DNA from: a virus
IMG/VR virus record: IMGVR_UViG_3300020203_000008
Coordinates: 62,001-126,000 of that record
Direction: 5' to 3' (one strand)
DNA length: 64,000 nucleotides
A program made the translations under genes and the position numbers. Below, piece by piece: positions 36,112 to 55,298 of the stretch. A model generated the notes under the pieces. The model was given only the letters and a program-made list of their open reading frames with translations, searched no databases and was not told where the DNA came from. How positions within the stretch are numbered: the stretch's first letter is position 1; the number at the start of each line of letters is the position of its first letter.

Positions 36112-36214
36112 TTTTATTTGTCGGCTCTTCGGATGGAAGCACGTCACTCGTGCCCTTAACGAAGCATTCAGTTTAAAGGAAGACAGTGTTTCTACGTCAG
36201 ACGTTTCTAGATGA
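36101..36214 (+). CDS. Possible micro-protein (37 aa)
   Basis: ATG 36101 overlaps the previous gene by 11 bases; the frame (MILNFICRLFGWKHVTRALN...) bridges the otherwise empty 74 bases before the reductase and overlaps its start by 29 bases. There is no clear ribosome site, so this is uncertain. Confidence 0.3.
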   Translation: MILNFICRLFGWKHVTRALNEAFSLKEDSVSTSDVSR

Positions 36215-38126
36215 ATTCAAAGACAAGGAAGTCAATTGGGGATTTTCTTCGGGGCCTAATTCCCTGGGGGAAGTCACGTACCGTCGTACCTACAGTCGTG
36301 ACGGTGAACAGTGGTGGGAGACGGTCCAACGTGTAGTTGAGGGCGTCTACTCGATCATTGGCGATCATTGTGAACGCTACTCCCTTCCTTTGGATCGGGA
36401 ACTTGCGACAGAAGACGCAGAGACAATGTACCGCCTGATTTTTGACTTCAAGTTTCTGCCTCCGGGCCGGGGCCTCTGGATGATGGGGACTGATTACGTT
36501 CGAACAAGAGGCGGGGCTGCACTCAACAACTGCGCGTTTGTGAGCACAGAGAAGATCGACGTGGAGTTCGATCGGCCGTTCCGATTCCTCATGGACATGA
36601 GCATGCTTGGTGCTGGTGTTGGTTTTGATACTCGTGGCGCTGGGAAGCTGGTGTGGTGTCCTTCAAACGGTAACGTAATCGATGTTCAGGTGGAGGATTC
36701 GAGGGAAGGCTGGGTGGACTCGTTGAGTTCGCTATTGAAGTGGGCGTGGGGTGCTGGTGCTCAGCCGGTCTTCGATTACTCGCTGATCCGACCCAGAGGA
36801 ACGAAGATTAAGGGATTCGGAGGAGTCTCCGAGGGCCCAGATCCGCTGATCAAGCTGCATCAATCTCTGTTCAAAATGATCCGAGACCGTGATGGAGAGA
36901 AGGTAACGAGCCGAGACATCACCGACATCTTCAACTTGATCGGTGTCTGTGTTGTATCAGGGAATGTCCGTCGTTCGGCTGAAATTGCGTTTGGTGAGCC
37001 GGGTGACGAGGAGTTCTTGAACCTCAAGAACTACGACCTTAATCCTGAGCGTGCCGAGTTTGGGTGGTCCTCCAACAACAGTGTGTTCGCTGAGGTTGGC
37101 ATGGATTATCATGTCTTCACCGACAGGATCGTGAGCAACGGTGAACCTGGATTTGCTTGGCTCTCGAACATGCAAGCCTACGGAAGGATGGTTGATCCAC
37201 CGAACAACAAGGACTGGAGAGTTCGTGGAGGTAATCCATGTTTGGAGCAGTCACTCGAACCATACGAGATGTGCTGCTTGGTGGAGACCTTCCCTTACCA
37301 TCACGAAACAGTCGAGGAATATCAGCGCACACTAAAGTATGCCTACATCTACGCTAAGGCTGTGACGTTGTTGGCTACGCATTGGGAGCAGACCAATGCG
37401 GTGATGCTGAGGAACCGTCGAATCGGTACTTCGATGAGTGGCATCACCCAGTTCCTCGCTTACCGCGGGGAGAAGGAATTGGTTAAATGGTGTGAGTTAG
37501 GTTACGAGACAGTTCAACACTATGACCGTGTGTATTCCGAATGGCTTTGCATCAGAGAATCAGTTAAGACAACGAGTGTTAAGCCATCCGGTACGGTGAG
37601 CCTGCTTGCTGGAGCAACACCGGGTTGCCACTTCCCCACCTTCCGTTACTACCTGCGAAGGATCCGATTCTCCGACACGCATCCGGATGTTGAAGCTTTC
37701 CGGGAAGCAGGTTATAATGTTGAGGTTGCTGTTAATGAACCGAACACTGTTGTTGTCGAATTCCCCGTTGAGGGCGATAGCAGAGTTAAGACTGAACGGC
37801 AGGTATCCTTGGCAGAAAAGATGAGGATTGCTACACTTCTTCAGAAGCACTGGGCTGACAATCAAGTATCATGTACAGCCACGTTCGATCCTGAGAGGGA
37901 AGGCCATCTAATACCTGATCTGCTAATGGCATACGATTCTCGTCTCAAGGGAATCTCATTCCTACCCCTTTATGAGGCTGGAGCTTTCCCTCAAATGCCA
38001 TATGAGTCGATCACCCCGAAGCAATACGAGAAGCTAACGAAGGATCTGAAACCAATTGTCTGGCCGCAAGAGAGTGCTCATGACACCGAAGACAGATTCT
38101 GCGACGGCCCAACGTGCTCACTTTAG
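36186..38126 (+). CDS. nrdJ: Class II (B12-dependent) ribonucleotide reductase, monomeric type
   Basis: A 646-residue reductase starting at GTG 36186 after AAAGGA. The active-site set fits the Lactobacillus RTPR type: NNCAF (about 115), NPCLEQ with the radical Cys and the partner Glu two residues on (about 350), a second Cys exactly 11 residues after the radical Cys (EMCC), and C-terminal FCDGPTC with the two reducing Cys five apart. It uses adenosylcobalamin to turn ribonucleoside triphosphates into deoxy forms, so it depends on host B12. It is somewhat shorter than the 739-residue L. leichmannii enzyme. Confidence 0.9.
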   Translation: MFLRQTFLDEFKDKEVNWGFSSGPNSLGEVTYRRTYSRDGEQWWETVQRVVEGVYSIIGDHCERYSLPLDRELATEDAETMYRLIFDFKFLPPGRGLWMMGTDYVRTRGGAALNNCAFVSTEKIDVEFDRPFRFLMDMSMLGAGVGFDTRGAGKLVWCPSNGNVIDVQVEDSREGWVDSLSSLLKWAWGAGAQPVFDYSLIRPRGTKIKGFGGVSEGPDPLIKLHQSLFKMIRDRDGEKVTSRDITDIFNLIGVCVVSGNVRRSAEIAFGEPGDEEFLNLKNYDLNPERAEFGWSSNNSVFAEVGMDYHVFTDRIVSNGEPGFAWLSNMQAYGRMVDPPNNKDWRVRGGNPCLEQSLEPYEMCCLVETFPYHHETVEEYQRTLKYAYIYAKAVTLLATHWEQTNAVMLRNRRIGTSMSGITQFLAYRGEKELVKWCELGYETVQHYDRVYSEWLCIRESVKTTSVKPSGTVSLLAGATPGCHFPTFRYYLRRIRFSDTHPDVEAFREAGYNVEVAVNEPNTVVVEFPVEGDSRVKTERQVSLAEKMRIATLLQKHWADNQVSCTATFDPEREGHLIPDLLMAYDSRLKGISFLPLYEAGAFPQMPYESITPKQYEKLTKDLKPIVWPQESAHDTEDRFCDGPTCSL

Positions 38127-41519: not shown

Positions 41520-41795
41520 TCAGAACTTCAGGTAGATGACTTCAATACCGAGGGCGTCCAACAGCAACGCCCTGGCGATGGTGTCGAGGTCGTTGTTCAA
41601 CGTAGCTTGGGCGTCGAGCACTTCCTCAATCTCGGTCTGCACACGGGTCAGGTGCTCGGATTCGATTACCACCTTGTCCCGAGTGATTGCCACCTTGTCC
41701 CGAGCCTTGCCAAGAGCAGCATATAGACGCGTCTGTTCCGTCTTTAGCAGCTTGGCCTGCTCCACAATCTCGTTCTGCTTGGCTGTAAGCGCCAT
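41520..41795 (-). CDS. Coiled-coil protein with seven-residue duplication
   Basis: A 91-residue helical protein (EIVEQAKLLKTEQTRLYAAL). It contains RDKVAIT then RDKVVIE, from a 21-bp period repeat. Its ATG shares one base with the stop of the CsrA gene. Function unknown; the neighbour suggests an RNA- or translation-related setting, which is only a guess. Confidence 0.65.
   Translation of the reverse strand: MALTAKQNEIVEQAKLLKTEQTRLYAALGKARDKVAITRDKVVIESEHLTRVQTEIEEVLDAQATLNNDLDTIARALLLDALGIEVIYLKF
41669..41704 (-). repeat. 21-bp period repeat inside the coiled-coil gene
   Basis: A 15-bp identical core occurs at 41669-41683 and 41690-41704, offset by exactly 21 bp, producing the RDKVAI / RDKVVI duplication. 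Confidence 0.85.
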
Positions 41796-42010
41796 TATCG
41801 CTTCTCCAATTTGACGGTAAAATCCGTTCTTCGCTTTCGTTCTGTGACTTCGTGGCGATCCACCAGGATTTTACGTGGAGCGCGAATACAAATTCTGGCT
41901 TGACCTTCGCTGATCTCTGCTACTTCAACTTCGATGATCCCGCCAGCGATGTCGATGATCTGACCTACTCTGCGAGTGAGGACGAGCGTCGTGATGTCGT
42001 CTTCGGTCAT
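41795..42010 (-). CDS. csrA: CsrA-family RNA-binding regulator, phage-encoded
   Basis: A 71-residue protein. After an eight-residue extension it reads LVLTRRVGQIIDI, then EGQARICIRAPRKILVDRHEV, the CsrA core. The key RNA-binding Arg residues are present: RR after LT near the start and the Arg in VDRHEV that corresponds to Arg44. CsrA dimers bind GGA motifs in mRNA leaders and block or promote translation. The ATG shares a base with the upstream stop (TAATG). Actinobacteria are not known for widespread csrA, so it may act on phage or other mRNAs. Confidence 0.88.
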   Translation of the reverse strand: MTEDDITTLVLTRRVGQIIDIAGGIIEVEVAEISEGQARICIRAPRKILVDRHEVTERKRRTDFTVKLEKR

Positions 42011-43494: not shown

Positions 43495-43524
43495 AACATA
43501 CTATCGGGATGGCGGGACAGTCAA
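43495..43524 (-). promoter_or_regulatory. Promoter for the ParB-like gene
   Basis: On the minus strand TTGACT (43524-43519) is 18 bases ahead of TATGTT (43500-43495). The -35 matches 5 of 6 bases and the -10 matches 4 of 6. The -35 overlaps the stop codon of the bL12-like gene. The leader to the ATG is about 25 bases. Confidence 0.5.
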
Positions 43525-43988
43525 GCAAGATTTTTGGCAATCTCAACGAGCCCATCCTTGGCCTCTTGGATGGCAGCAGCCGACAGGTGGGACTTGCTGA
43601 TCTCAACGTTGGCTCCAATGGCAGCAAACCGTTCTACAATTTCCAAAGCAGACTTCTCTGAGATGGCCCGGTTCAGTAGCTGTGGCGCAGGGTCAAGACC
43701 ACCTGTCCGTTCAACAAGAGTTTTTGCTTCCTTCAAACCCAGGGAAGTGACCTGCCGTACTTCCTTGATGCAGGCGATTATTTTCTGGCCCCGATCGGTC
43801 AAGTAAACATCGTAAGGGCTTTCAAGGTCGTCCATGATGGTTGGCGTGACTCCGCTAGCCTTTTCAAGTGCGCTTACGAGATCGTTTCCTGTGAGGACAA
43901 GAAGAGTAATTATTTCTATGCCCGCAACTAGCCCCCCTTTGCTTTCTCTTTTTGCTTTCTCCCAGGCTTCAACTTCTGGAATCATCAT
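43521..43988 (-). CDS. bL12-like ribosomal protein (L7/L12), phage-encoded
   Basis: A 155-residue protein. Residues about 22-50 (LLVLTGNDLVSALEKASGV) resemble the bL12 N-terminal dimer/uL10-binding segment. Residues about 58-126 match the C-terminal factor-binding domain: YDVYLTDRGQKIIACIKEV, SLGLKEAKTLVER, and AIGANVEISK, with the hallmark GLKEAK helix. The hinge between is very short, and about 25 extra residues (LSAAAIQEAKDGLVEIAKNL) follow. It may join the ribosomal stalk or bind elongation factors. Start at 43988 overlaps the previous stop; ATG 43985 has better spacing to GGAGG. Confidence 0.85.
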   Translation of the reverse strand: MMIPEVEAWEKAKRESKGGLVAGIEIITLLVLTGNDLVSALEKASGVTPTIMDDLESPYDVYLTDRGQKIIACIKEVRQVTSLGLKEAKTLVERTGGLDPAPQLLNRAISEKSALEIVERFAAIGANVEISKSHLSAAAIQEAKDGLVEIAKNLA

Positions 43989-44614: not shown

Positions 44615-45520
44615 TTATTTACGTTCGGCTTTGAGCTTGTTTAGCCCAGCTTGGGTGATCGATCGACCGCTTTCAGTGTACTCGATCAGATCGAACTTAA
44701 ACAGGAGCCTCTCTAGGTCCCTGACGGTCGGGTCGGGGATCTGGAGAACACTCTGAATGGGCTTCAGTCCTGCGGTGCTGCCAAGCTTTACGAGTGCTCG
44801 CAGATACTTGTAGTGCATGGCCGAGAGCCCGATCTCGTCTACCCGGCAAAGGATCATCACTTCTTCTGCGATTGGGATTCGGTTCAGACTGTGCTGAAGA
44901 TCTCTGGCTGCAAGAACAAACTGACGTGCGTTCCTGGGGATTCCTCCCGTTGCCTTGCCAAGCTTCTGGGACACCTCGATCGAGAACTCTAGCTTAATCT
45001 TGATTGCCATGCCCGCAACGATCAGTCCCATCTCTTCGTTCGTGTACTCCTCGAACACGGGCTTTGTCGGGAAACGATCGAACAGCGGTGCGATCACCTT
45101 GTCGGGCTCGGTCGTAGCACCAATGACTGTGATTAGATTAGTGGAGTGCTTTCGTCCCCGCCGATCTTGGATGTATCCAGACTCCAGTAGGGGAAGGAGG
45201 CTCTCTTGTTCCTTCTTGGATCCCCGGTGGATCTCATCCAGAAGCAGGACGGTGGGTTCCCACTCGTTGTCTACTTCCTGGATCATGCTAATCATCGTTC
45301 GTTCATCCACCGGCATGGTCAGGCTGATGAATTCGTATCCAAGTTCCTTCGCAATGATTGTGGCGAGCGAAGTTTTACCAAACCCAGGCGGGCCGGTAAG
45401 TAGAATATGGTCGAGCATATGACCCTGCGCCACAGCAGAGGCAATATGGATACTCAGTCGATCCTTCAGCATGGTCTGACCAACAAAGTCTTTCCATGTG
45501 TCAACTCGAACCTGATCCAT
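44615..45520 (-). CDS. RuvB-like AAA+ branch-migration motor
   Basis: A 301-residue protein. Walker A is GPPGFGKTS (43-51), Walker B LLLDEIH (about 92-98), sensor 1 VIGATTEPDKV and an arginine-finger region LFDRFPTK. Residues 230-301 form the RuvB-type winged-helix domain. It is shorter than bacterial RuvB (about 335). It lacks a visible RuvA or RuvC partner here. It probably drives Holliday-junction movement during replication or recombination. Confidence 0.88.
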   Translation of the reverse strand: MDQVRVDTWKDFVGQTMLKDRLSIHIASAVAQGHMLDHILLTGPPGFGKTSLATIIAKELGYEFISLTMPVDERTMISMIQEVDNEWEPTVLLLDEIHRGSKKEQESLLPLLESGYIQDRRGRKHSTNLITVIGATTEPDKVIAPLFDRFPTKPVFEEYTNEEMGLIVAGMAIKIKLEFSIEVSQKLGKATGGIPRNARQFVLAARDLQHSLNRIPIAEEVMILCRVDEIGLSAMHYKYLRALVKLGSTAGLKPIQSVLQIPDPTVRDLERLLFKFDLIEYTESGRSITQAGLNKLKAERK

Positions 45521-51527: not shown

Positions 51528-51843
51528 GAGCCAACTCCTTAGCTACCCTCAGCAATCCCTCAGTGGCAGCCTCAAGATCTTCAATCGTTGGGACACGGGC
51601 CAAAGTTAGTCCCTTGCTGTTGATGGTAAAGGTTTGTGAGTACCAGTAATCTTCGAAACCTTCTGCTAAATGCACGGCCACATGCGGTAATATTTCGCTG
51701 CGGTTAGGTGAAGGACTTATGGAATCTACGACGACGTGAACACCGTTTAGCTTGTCTATACCGGAGGAGTCTACGCGCCAGGCTGTGGTGTCAATAACAT
51801 ACGTCTCGCCGATAATGACACTATAGGGAGTTGAAGATCTCAC
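51517..51843 (-). CDS. Phage protein downstream of ViaA-like gene, unknown
   Basis: A 108-residue protein starting at GTG 51843 inside the end of the ViaA-like gene. It is beta-rich (PYSVIIGETYVIDTTAWRV). Overlap suggests coupled expression with the VWA protein. Confidence 0.6.
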   Translation of the reverse strand: MRSSTPYSVIIGETYVIDTTAWRVDSSGIDKLNGVHVVVDSISPSPNRSEILPHVAVHLAEGFEDYWYSQTFTINSKGLTLARVPTIEDLEAATEGLLRVAKELAHGS

Positions 51844-53410
51844 GGACCGATTCCCCTGAAGTCAACGACTTAATAGTCGCGACCTGCTGATCGCAAATCG
51901 TCCACATAGGTTCATCTCTAGCGGATCCACCAATGTTCACTCCCCAGACCTGGAAACCAAGCCGGTCCTGTTCCTTCTTGAACTCCGTGAGCCACTGATC
52001 ATCCACACTGCACATACCATCAGTAGCGAACACGATGTCGGCCTTAACTGCACCAAACCGTTCGTGCTGCTCCTGAAGGATTGTCAGAGCATGAGTGAGG
52101 GGAGTCCGGAAATCGGTTCCCCCACCGAAGAAGAATTCAGCGAAGTCGAGCACCTTGTCGGCGTCGATGTTCTGTGAATCCCTAAAGTCGTCAATCCTGA
52201 TTTGGTGCGGACTGCCGAACTGGATTGCATAGAACTCTCGCTTCTGCTTCCTCGCAATGTGCAGCAAGCACAGACCAAGAGCCTTGGTCCATATTTCAGG
52301 CTCACCACTCATCGAACCAGAACCATCGTGGCAGAAAACAATGCCGCCCTTAGCGACCTTCTCATAACCGCGCATCTTGTACTGAAGCAGGTTCCGATCC
52401 ATGTACTGCTTGAAGAACTTCATCCTCCGTAGAGGGTGCATAAGCTGTCCAAGCTCAGACGGCAGGACACGACGCAGGTTATTGCCCTGCTCCACGTCAT
52501 ACACTTCTTCCGGCGTGTAGTTCACCTTGCGCCGGTTCTCGGTGAAGGCCAAACGCTTCATAGGACCAAACAGTTCAGCGATCTTCTTAAACTTCGGGCT
52601 ATTCAACTTCCGTGCAAGTTCCATACGCTCATTGGCGGGCAGACGGTGAAGTTGACCCGGCTCCAAACCCCAAGCCTGAGCCATGTTCTCCTGGGCTTCC
52701 ATGTCCTCATTGGCCTGCTTCATGGCCTGCTTCATAGCGCCACGGATCTCGGGACCCGCACCGTTCAAAGCATCCTTAAGCTCCTGGCCCTTCTCCTGCA
52801 TCTGCTGCTGGAGAGCTTCCATACGCTCCTGAAGCTGCTTAGCCTTCTCCTGGTAATCCTGAGGCTCCGAATCTTCGGGGTTGTTCTCAGTCCAATCCTT
52901 GAACATCTCCTCAAGGTCGCGCTGCTCCTGCTGAGCCTGAGCCATCTGCGCCATAAGCTCCTGAAGTTCCTGAGCAAGTTTCTGCTCCCCTTCGAGCTTG
53001 TCGTAAAGCGTTTCTATGTCAGGCTCAATGGTGTTGAATGCCAGAGCCGCACCAATGTCGTCGCCCTGAGTCCACATACGCAATTCTCTGTAGTCAGGGA
53101 GATCTACTGCTTCCTGCATAACCTTGCGGTTAACGAGGTTTTGAGGACGCACCTTGTTCTCGTCCAACAGGTCAGGATCAACCTTCCAAAGAGACAGGTA
53201 AAGATCCTGGGTTACTGGATAGGCAAGATCGCCAGCCTTGGAGTCGGCCAGCTTGTCTCGCATAGCCCGATATTCCTTCATCTCCTCTAGGAGACGTTGG
53301 TGATCTTGCCGGTCGTAACGGTCGCTATCAATCGTAAATGGTGAAAGGTCGTTAGGGTTTGGGCTCTTCTTGCCCTTACCCATCCAATCTTTGAGAAAAT
53401 CCTTAGCCAT
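51821..53410 (-). CDS. VWA protein, ViaA-like, partner of the RavA-like ATPase
   Basis: A 529-residue protein. The first 300 residues include a long Gln/Glu/Leu coiled coil (ALQQQMQEKGQELKDALNG). The VWA domain begins with VFCHDGSGSMSG (about residue 360), supplying the DxSxS metal site, followed by FGGGTDF and VFATDG, the other metal-site parts. Together with the RavA-like ATPase about 700 bases upstream, this matches the RavA-ViaA pair. ViaA is a CoxE-type VWA protein that stimulates RavA. The phage role is unknown. Confidence 0.8.
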   Translation of the reverse strand: MAKDFLKDWMGKGKKSPNPNDLSPFTIDSDRYDRQDHQRLLEEMKEYRAMRDKLADSKAGDLAYPVTQDLYLSLWKVDPDLLDENKVRPQNLVNRKVMQEAVDLPDYRELRMWTQGDDIGAALAFNTIEPDIETLYDKLEGEQKLAQELQELMAQMAQAQQEQRDLEEMFKDWTENNPEDSEPQDYQEKAKQLQERMEALQQQMQEKGQELKDALNGAGPEIRGAMKQAMKQANEDMEAQENMAQAWGLEPGQLHRLPANERMELARKLNSPKFKKIAELFGPMKRLAFTENRRKVNYTPEEVYDVEQGNNLRRVLPSELGQLMHPLRRMKFFKQYMDRNLLQYKMRGYEKVAKGGIVFCHDGSGSMSGEPEIWTKALGLCLLHIARKQKREFYAIQFGSPHQIRIDDFRDSQNIDADKVLDFAEFFFGGGTDFRTPLTHALTILQEQHERFGAVKADIVFATDGMCSVDDQWLTEFKKEQDRLGFQVWGVNIGGSARDEPMWTICDQQVATIKSLTSGESVREIFNSL

Positions 53411-54110: not shown

Positions 54111-55298
54111 CTAGAGAGAGACTTCAGTGTCGATATTGAAGATCTCTTTGAGCAGCCGCTTCGTGACACTCAACAGCCGGGTACGAACTTCCTCGACCTT
54201 GGCAGACTTACGCTTAGAAGACTCCACCTGCTTAGACAGCTTGTGGAGATCATCCTTAGCCTTGTCAACCTTGTTGTGAAGCTCCACACCCTTCTTGTTC
54301 TTCAACTGCGGATCAACCGACTTGTCAGCAAGAACCTTGTCAAGCTCACTTGACAGCTTCTCAACAGTTTCAAGCAGGCTCATAGCTTCCTTGTCGAGCG
54401 GATTTGCAAGCTCCAGAAGGAGACGCTCAACCTTAGGCTGCTCTTCCTTAGAAGTCCACAGGACGTGAGCCAAGGGACGCATGTGCTCGATATCCGCAAC
54501 CGTCTGACCGTCCAGATATGCGGCAGCCCTGATAATCTTCAGGCACTCCACAAAGCGTCGGTCGGTCGGCTCGATACCATCGGTGCGGAGATCCGCCCGG
54601 ACAGTCTGGAGGGCATCCAGAACGTCTCCAGGGACCTCAACAGCCAGACTGGCCTGGTGAGCTTCCTGAATCTCATCCCAAGTGATGAGCTTGTCGGTCG
54701 GTCCAGAAGCACTGATCTTGAGCATCTGGATAAAGTTCCCAGGCTCCTGAATGCGCTTCGTGATCAGCCGGAACTGCACTCGGTCATAGATGGCGTTCAG
54801 TTCCTCACCATCGGGAAGCTCGTTAGAAGCACAGAACATGGTGTGAAGGGGCAGGTCATGCACCTGACCATCGTTCCGGAACTTCCGTTCGTTCAATGCC
54901 CAAAGAAGCGTGTTCAGAATAGCCGAGTTGGCCTTCCAAATCTCGTCCAAGAACCAGACGTGAGCCTCAGGGGCAAAGCCCTTAGTGACGAATGCGAAAC
55001 GATCCTCTTCCAGGCCCTTAAGGCTGACAGGACCGTTGATCTCTTCCGGAGTGGAAGTACGGGTCATGAGCGTGTCGAAGAAGTTGTAATCTCCGCCGAT
55101 CATTTCCATCATCTTCACAATGGACCGCGACTTGGCCACACCAGGCTCACCGAGCTGGAAGTGGTGAGTCCCGGAAACCAAAGCGAGAACCTGAGTCTCG
55201 ATGATGTCGTTACGCTCGATCAGGTGGGTCCGGAGACCATCCTTCAGAGTCTCGAACTTCTCCGGCAAAGTCGGAGTAGTGGTGGTGGTGTCTGACAT
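54111..55298 (-). CDS. MoxR AAA+ ATPase, RavA-like
   Basis: A 395-residue ATPase. Walker A GEPGVAKS (50-57), then LMTRTSTPEEINGPVSL, Walker B WFLDEIWKANSAILNTLL, FCASNELPDG and the arginine-finger segment YDRVQFRL. The phrases LMTR-STPEE, FLDEIWKA and ASNELP match RavA closely. A helical C-terminal region (from about 300) replaces the RavA LARA insertion. The paired VWA gene supports a RavA-ViaA type chaperone-like system. Confidence 0.85.
   Translation of the reverse strand: MSDTTTTTPTLPEKFETLKDGLRTHLIERNDIIETQVLALVSGTHHFQLGEPGVAKSRSIVKMMEMIGGDYNFFDTLMTRTSTPEEINGPVSLKGLEEDRFAFVTKGFAPEAHVWFLDEIWKANSAILNTLLWALNERKFRNDGQVHDLPLHTMFCASNELPDGEELNAIYDRVQFRLITKRIQEPGNFIQMLKISASGPTDKLITWDEIQEAHQASLAVEVPGDVLDALQTVRADLRTDGIEPTDRRFVECLKIIRAAAYLDGQTVADIEHMRPLAHVLWTSKEEQPKVERLLLELANPLDKEAMSLLETVEKLSSELDKVLADKSVDPQLKNKKGVELHNKVDKAKDDLHKLSKQVESSKRKSAKVEEVRTRLLSVTKRLLKEIFNIDTEVSL

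Follow-up and report, generated by a model that had tools for sequence, protein, structure and literature searches.

A strongly diverged bL12-domain protein encoded in the genome of a tailed phage

The ribosomal stalk protein bL12 draws helper enzymes to the ribosome, and a phage that carries a copy of it may tamper with the protein synthesis of its host. The locus described here encodes a bL12-like protein, which stands out mainly by its degree of drift, and raises the question whether the product acts at the stalk of the host ribosome or has been turned to another use.

The gene and its genomic setting

The window, i.e. the whole 64,000-nt stretch analyzed, corresponds to positions 62,001-126,000 of a record of 136,572 bases. 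Genes for a terminase large subunit, a tape-measure protein, a primase/helicase and a ribonucleotide reductase are found in the record, which, judged by its gene content, is that of a tailed phage; the wording 'phage-encoded' used in a preliminary description of the locus is borne out by the terminase, tape-measure and replication genes. The coordinates given there for the gene, 43521-43988, were right and the coding strand is the minus one; the in-frame reading of the plus strand over the same interval contains stops. A Shine-Dalgarno-like GGAGGAG lies directly 5' of two adjacent ATG codons (ATGATG); since its spacing is better for the second one, a start there would shorten the protein by one residue. 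The features of gene and product are reported in Table 1.

Table 1. Features of the bL12-like gene and of its product, in window coordinates
Feature	Residues	Position	Strand	Basis
Phage bL12-like gene	155 aa	43521..43988	minus	ATG at 43988, stop ending 43521
N-terminal extension	1-15	43944..43988	minus	predicted helix 4-15
Probable diverged bL12 NTD helical hairpin (dimerisation/uL10-binding type)	16-48	43845..43943	minus	pairwise and diverse-profile similarity
Shortened hinge, 10 aa	49-58	43815..43844	minus	alignment landmarks
bL12 CTD	59-130	43599..43814	minus	PF00542 and predicted fold
Two helices of the factor-binding face (IIACIKEVRQVTSLGLKEAKTLVE)	70-93	43710..43781	minus	alignment to bL12 set
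C-terminal extension	131-155	43524..43598	minus	predicted helix 137-154

The gene is located within a packed run of minus-strand genes, the start of which, near 41 kb, coincides with a change in the sign of the GC skew. Its recognisable neighbors encode RuvB-like, CsrA-like and HTH proteins, translation genes not being among them; neither uL10 nor bS21, and no rplJ, were found in the record. When the neighboring HTH and RuvB-like proteins were used as queries, no syntenic relatives were detected beyond the same virus. In PHROGs, the bL12-like protein had only short, weak hits, all to families without a known function, and no name was gained from them.

Other genes of the window were also annotated. 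The RuvB-like AAA+ protein (44615-45520, minus strand) matches the Pfam RuvB_N and RuvB_C domains, is under the RuvB equivalog cut-offs and has relatives in human-gut phage contigs at about 31% identity, while the CsrA-like regulator (41795-42010, minus strand) is 71 aa long. ViaA-like and RavA-like proteins are encoded near each other on the minus strand (51821-53410 and 54111-55298). On the plus strand, an adenosylcobalamin-dependent ribonucleoside-triphosphate reductase (36186-38126) scores over its equivalog cut-off.

Domain organization of the protein

A C-terminal domain (CTD) of bL12 had been proposed at residues 58-126. Profile searches place it at residues 59-130, where PF00542 matches with 56.2 bits and an E value of 4.4e-15 (Pfam gathering cut-off 25.9), this being the sole return of the Pfam search at E up to 1; the protein also matches the sequence of the solved T. 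maritima bL12 structure (E 9.6e-10). In the AlphaFold model, obtained with a 40-row alignment, the CTD is made up of a strand, two helices, a strand, a helix and a strand (pLDDT 92-98). This is the beta-alpha-alpha-beta-alpha-beta topology of the bL12 CTD, the fold on which the preliminary description had staked its assignment beforehand. The predicted domain can be superposed onto bL12 of E. coli and of M. tuberculosis with Z values of 12-13 and an rmsd of 1.0-1.4 A, the closest bL12 CTD structures being 38-41% identical; in a viral structure library, the best match is RplL of an uncultured Caudovirales phage. The loop following the second helix is longer by about 6 aa. Residues 59-130 are, with certainty, a bL12 CTD.

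ClpS adaptors have the same fold as the CTD (Z 10-11, about 9-15% identity). This similarity is consistent with an unlikely explanation, according to which a bL12 CTD/ClpS-type fold would have been co-opted as an adaptor or interaction module outside translation, possibly together with neighboring phage proteins; the nature of the recognisable neighbors, none of them a translation gene, points in the same direction. However, the ClpS match is weaker than the bL12 one by both identity and Z, and no match of the ClpS profile to the phage protein was found in Pfam at E up to 1.

Single residues were compared with those of 100 bL12 sequences (75 from cells, 25 from phages), the cellular ones chosen partly by the peptide KEAKTLVE, so that conservation within that peptide (e.g. 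Thr85) is inflated; Lys65 and the aromatic residue of the N-terminal domain lie outside it. The equivalents of E. coli Ile69, Lys70, Arg73, Leu78, Gly79, Leu80, Lys81, Glu82 and Lys84 are kept. The factor-binding motif GLGLKEAK is retained, only the residue preceding it being different (Gly77 to Ser82), which again argues against a co-opted module. Lys65, present in 100/100 comparison sequences, is replaced by Ile70, but a lysine, Lys69, is found one position before, and a one-residue shift at this site is therefore possible. Apart from Lys65, the residues of the factor-binding helix on which the preliminary description relied are mostly in place, and the alignment shows that the CTD, as predicted from its sequence, keeps most of the surface binding translational GTPases.

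The N-terminal domain (NTD) has diverged much further. It had been proposed at residues 22-50, a claim that stands only in part: a remnant is likely at residues 16-48, but it is weak and diverged, and PF16320 gives no match. No curated profile finds an NTD in the protein, while PF16320 is matched by 9/9 other phage bL12s in the same alignment. Residues 16-48 align with the NTDs of Paenibacillus and Fusobacterium bL12. A locally built, proteobacteria-rich profile of cellular NTDs scores 1.6 bits, which was not taken as proof of absence, since a more diverse NTD profile scores 7.9 bits, a value equalled by 0/620 windows of real proteins from the same genome (maximum 3.6) and by 5/2000 shuffles. 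The best pairwise score over 79 NTDs, 56, is reached by 1/1000 shuffles and 0/900 phage ORF windows. As both tests lie above chance, the region is likely to be a diverged remnant of the bL12 NTD, not an intact domain. The aromatic residue preceding Gly-Val, found in 100/100 comparison sequences, is here Ser45. Helices 19-30 and 34-45 of the AlphaFold model have low confidence (pLDDT about 46-60) and, given the poor quality of the alignment-free, single-sequence fold (mean pLDDT 39), may come from the alignment and add little.

The remaining segments also differ from those of typical members. The hinge had been described as short, and indeed it spans half of the 20 aa separating the same landmarks (end of the NTD motif and first CTD strand) in E. 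coli; by a similar measure, hinges of other phage bL12s are about 19-36 aa long. The 25-residue C-terminal extension was confirmed as well and is modeled as one helix with pLDDT of about 77-89. Such a tail is absent in most other phage bL12s, although one of them (L021), provided with an NTD, has a longer one of 72 residues. The N-terminal extension is missing from most other bL12s. The TIGR00855 equivalog model scores 55.2 bits, below its cut-off of 84.4, and for this reason the protein was filed as a divergent phage bL12-domain protein and not as a standard bL12.

Relatives among phages and bacteria

A scan of IMG/VR with a bL12 alignment returned 80 of 85 confirmed loci, an earlier scan having returned 11. 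Phage loci number in the dozens and fall into two groups, pointing to two uses of the bL12 CTD by phages: full-length, stalk-type bL12s, which include an NTD, and CTD-only proteins, in which the domain stands alone within other proteins, encoded by ORFs of about 100-700 residues. Adjacency to rplJ/rpoB was found for none of the phage loci L021-L031 and for all but one of 80 bacterial loci. Among the 'phage' tblastn matches are rplL genes of bacteria, lying in contigs of the host or of contaminants, and these matches were left out of the phage cases.

The number of CTD-only proteins indicates that this use is common in phages, and fits a second, somewhat unlikely explanation, in which the protein would stay off the stalk, free in the cytoplasm, where its CTD would bind translational GTPases and titrate or redirect them. 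The poorly conserved NTD, with its invariant aromatic lost and PF16320 not matching, is in keeping with such a decoy. Against it, the NTD remnant is above chance, and loss of Lys65 should weaken binding of EF-Tu (PMC10602876), which would be odd for a decoy.

The bL12 CTD also occurs in phage and bacterial proteins of very different kinds, one of them from Fibrobacter and without adjoining rplJ/rpoB, which is in turn consistent with the co-opted adaptor considered above. The Fibrobacter protein (L101, 4657-6234), 510 aa long, has an N-terminus resembling a lipoprotein signal, stretches of low complexity and one or more copies of the bL12 CTD; no rplJ/rpoB is found nearby.

Two further observations were made among the matches. 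In a 716-aa phage protein (L031, 5473-7623) the bL12 CTD is embedded internally, resembling the embedded domains of some podophages (PMC6375957). Matches to rplL were also found in twelve C. difficile 'plasmid' records (L017, 1-639, NZ_CP149721.1, and 11 similar ones); the one inspected contains rplJ-rplL, and these records, about 97-150 kb among the matches listed, are possibly chromosomal pieces assembled as circles.

The nearest DNA relative of the bL12-like gene belongs to a second IMG/VR record of the same virus, with 0 mismatches over 12.4 kb and a single length difference, of 9 bases; beyond this near-identical record, no close relatives of the gene were found. In a CTD tree the protein is on a long branch (1.28), without a supported group. 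As the tree does not place it, no donor or host is claimed. The long branch, the loss of invariant residues and the lack of close relatives other than that record might indicate a recently captured or decaying gene, devoid of function. This is very improbable: the ORF is intact in both records, is preceded by a Shine-Dalgarno-like sequence and lies within a packed gene run, and the core of the domain is preserved in spite of such divergence.

Possible roles and comparison with known systems

The NTD of cellular bL12 forms dimers and attaches to the C-terminal helix of uL10, and translation factors are recruited by the CTD, which is mobile (PMC4592705). The explanation favored here, given a little less than an even chance, is that of a diverged phage-borne bL12 acting on the host ribosomal stalk. 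During infection, the NTD would pair with a second copy or with the bL12 of the host and dock on host uL10; since the phage record contains no uL10, any stalk joined must be that of the host. Some stalks would then bear a CTD on a short tether, without Lys65 and with an additional C-terminal helix, and recruitment of EF-Tu, EF-G, IF2 or RF3 might be altered, tilting translation in favor of the phage.

Several lines of evidence support action on the stalk, namely the PF00542 match and the fold; the conserved equivalents of Ile69, Lys70, Arg73, Gly79, Leu80, Glu82 and Lys84; an NTD remnant above chance and correctly placed before the CTD; the existence of other phages with full-length bL12, NTD included, together with the lack of uL10 and bS21 in the record; and the detection of a phage bL12-domain protein in E. 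coli 70S fractions (PMC6375957). The same experiments also weigh against it, as only one peptide of that protein (418 residues) was found and its tagged version failed to purify ribosomes (PMC6375957). The lack of a PF16320 match and the TIGR00855 score under cut-off count against it too, as do the halved hinge and the missing NTD aromatic and Lys65; in bacterial bL12, K65 and K70 substitutions weaken EF-Tu binding and lower translation efficiency and fidelity (PMC10602876). Replacement of, or competition with, host bL12, as put forward in the preliminary description, may reasonably be supposed. Loss of Lys65 and of the NTD aromatic, along with the halved hinge, makes a simple working replacement less certain. 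A more specific version, in which the subunit docks on host uL10 by a remodelled NTD and its short tether, missing Lys65 and added helix weaken recruitment of EF-Tu while contact with another factor is kept or gained, so that host translation is reprogrammed, is rather improbable. Overall, the protein would most likely engage host translational GTPases, either as an altered subunit of the stalk or as a decoy; the altered subunit ranks first, followed by the off-ribosome decoy and by the co-opted adaptor.

Since phage bL12 is already known from isolates and metagenomes, with ribosome-incorporation data (Mizuno 2019, PMC6375957), and has been reported again in huge phages (Al-Shayeb 2020, PMC7162821), novelty was overstated in the preliminary description. 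The protein adds a strongly diverged example to this set. With most of the factor-binding face kept and Lys65, hinge and tail changed, it is a useful natural variant for asking what a phage has to alter in the stalk.

Compared with known systems, the ClpS adaptor family is similar only in the overall fold of the CTD. With cellular bL12 (RplL of enterobacteria, 1dd3 of T. maritima) the phage protein shares the fold of the CTD and the majority of the factor-binding residues, and it is 33% identical overall to the protein of Salmonella; it differs by its score under the TIGR00855 cut-off, the loss of Lys65 and of the NTD aromatic, the halved hinge, the tail and the absence of a rplJ-rplL-rpoB context. 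Full-length phage bL12s from IMG/VR (e.g. L022, L025, L029, L116) exhibit the same NTD-hinge-CTD order and, where tested (L021-L031), are also located away from rplJ/rpoB; unlike the protein described here, they have a clear PF16320 NTD (9/9 tested) and retain Lys65, their hinges measure about 20-36 aa, and a tail is absent in most of them. The phage bL12-domain proteins of Mizuno 2019 (PMC6375957) are alike in carrying a PF00542 CTD, 30-40% identical to cellular bL12, within a phage genome and in an unrelated gene neighborhood. The present protein is a further, strongly diverged member of these, set apart by the missing Lys65 and by the joint presence of an NTD that is probable but diverged, a hinge of 10 aa and a 25-aa C-terminal helix.
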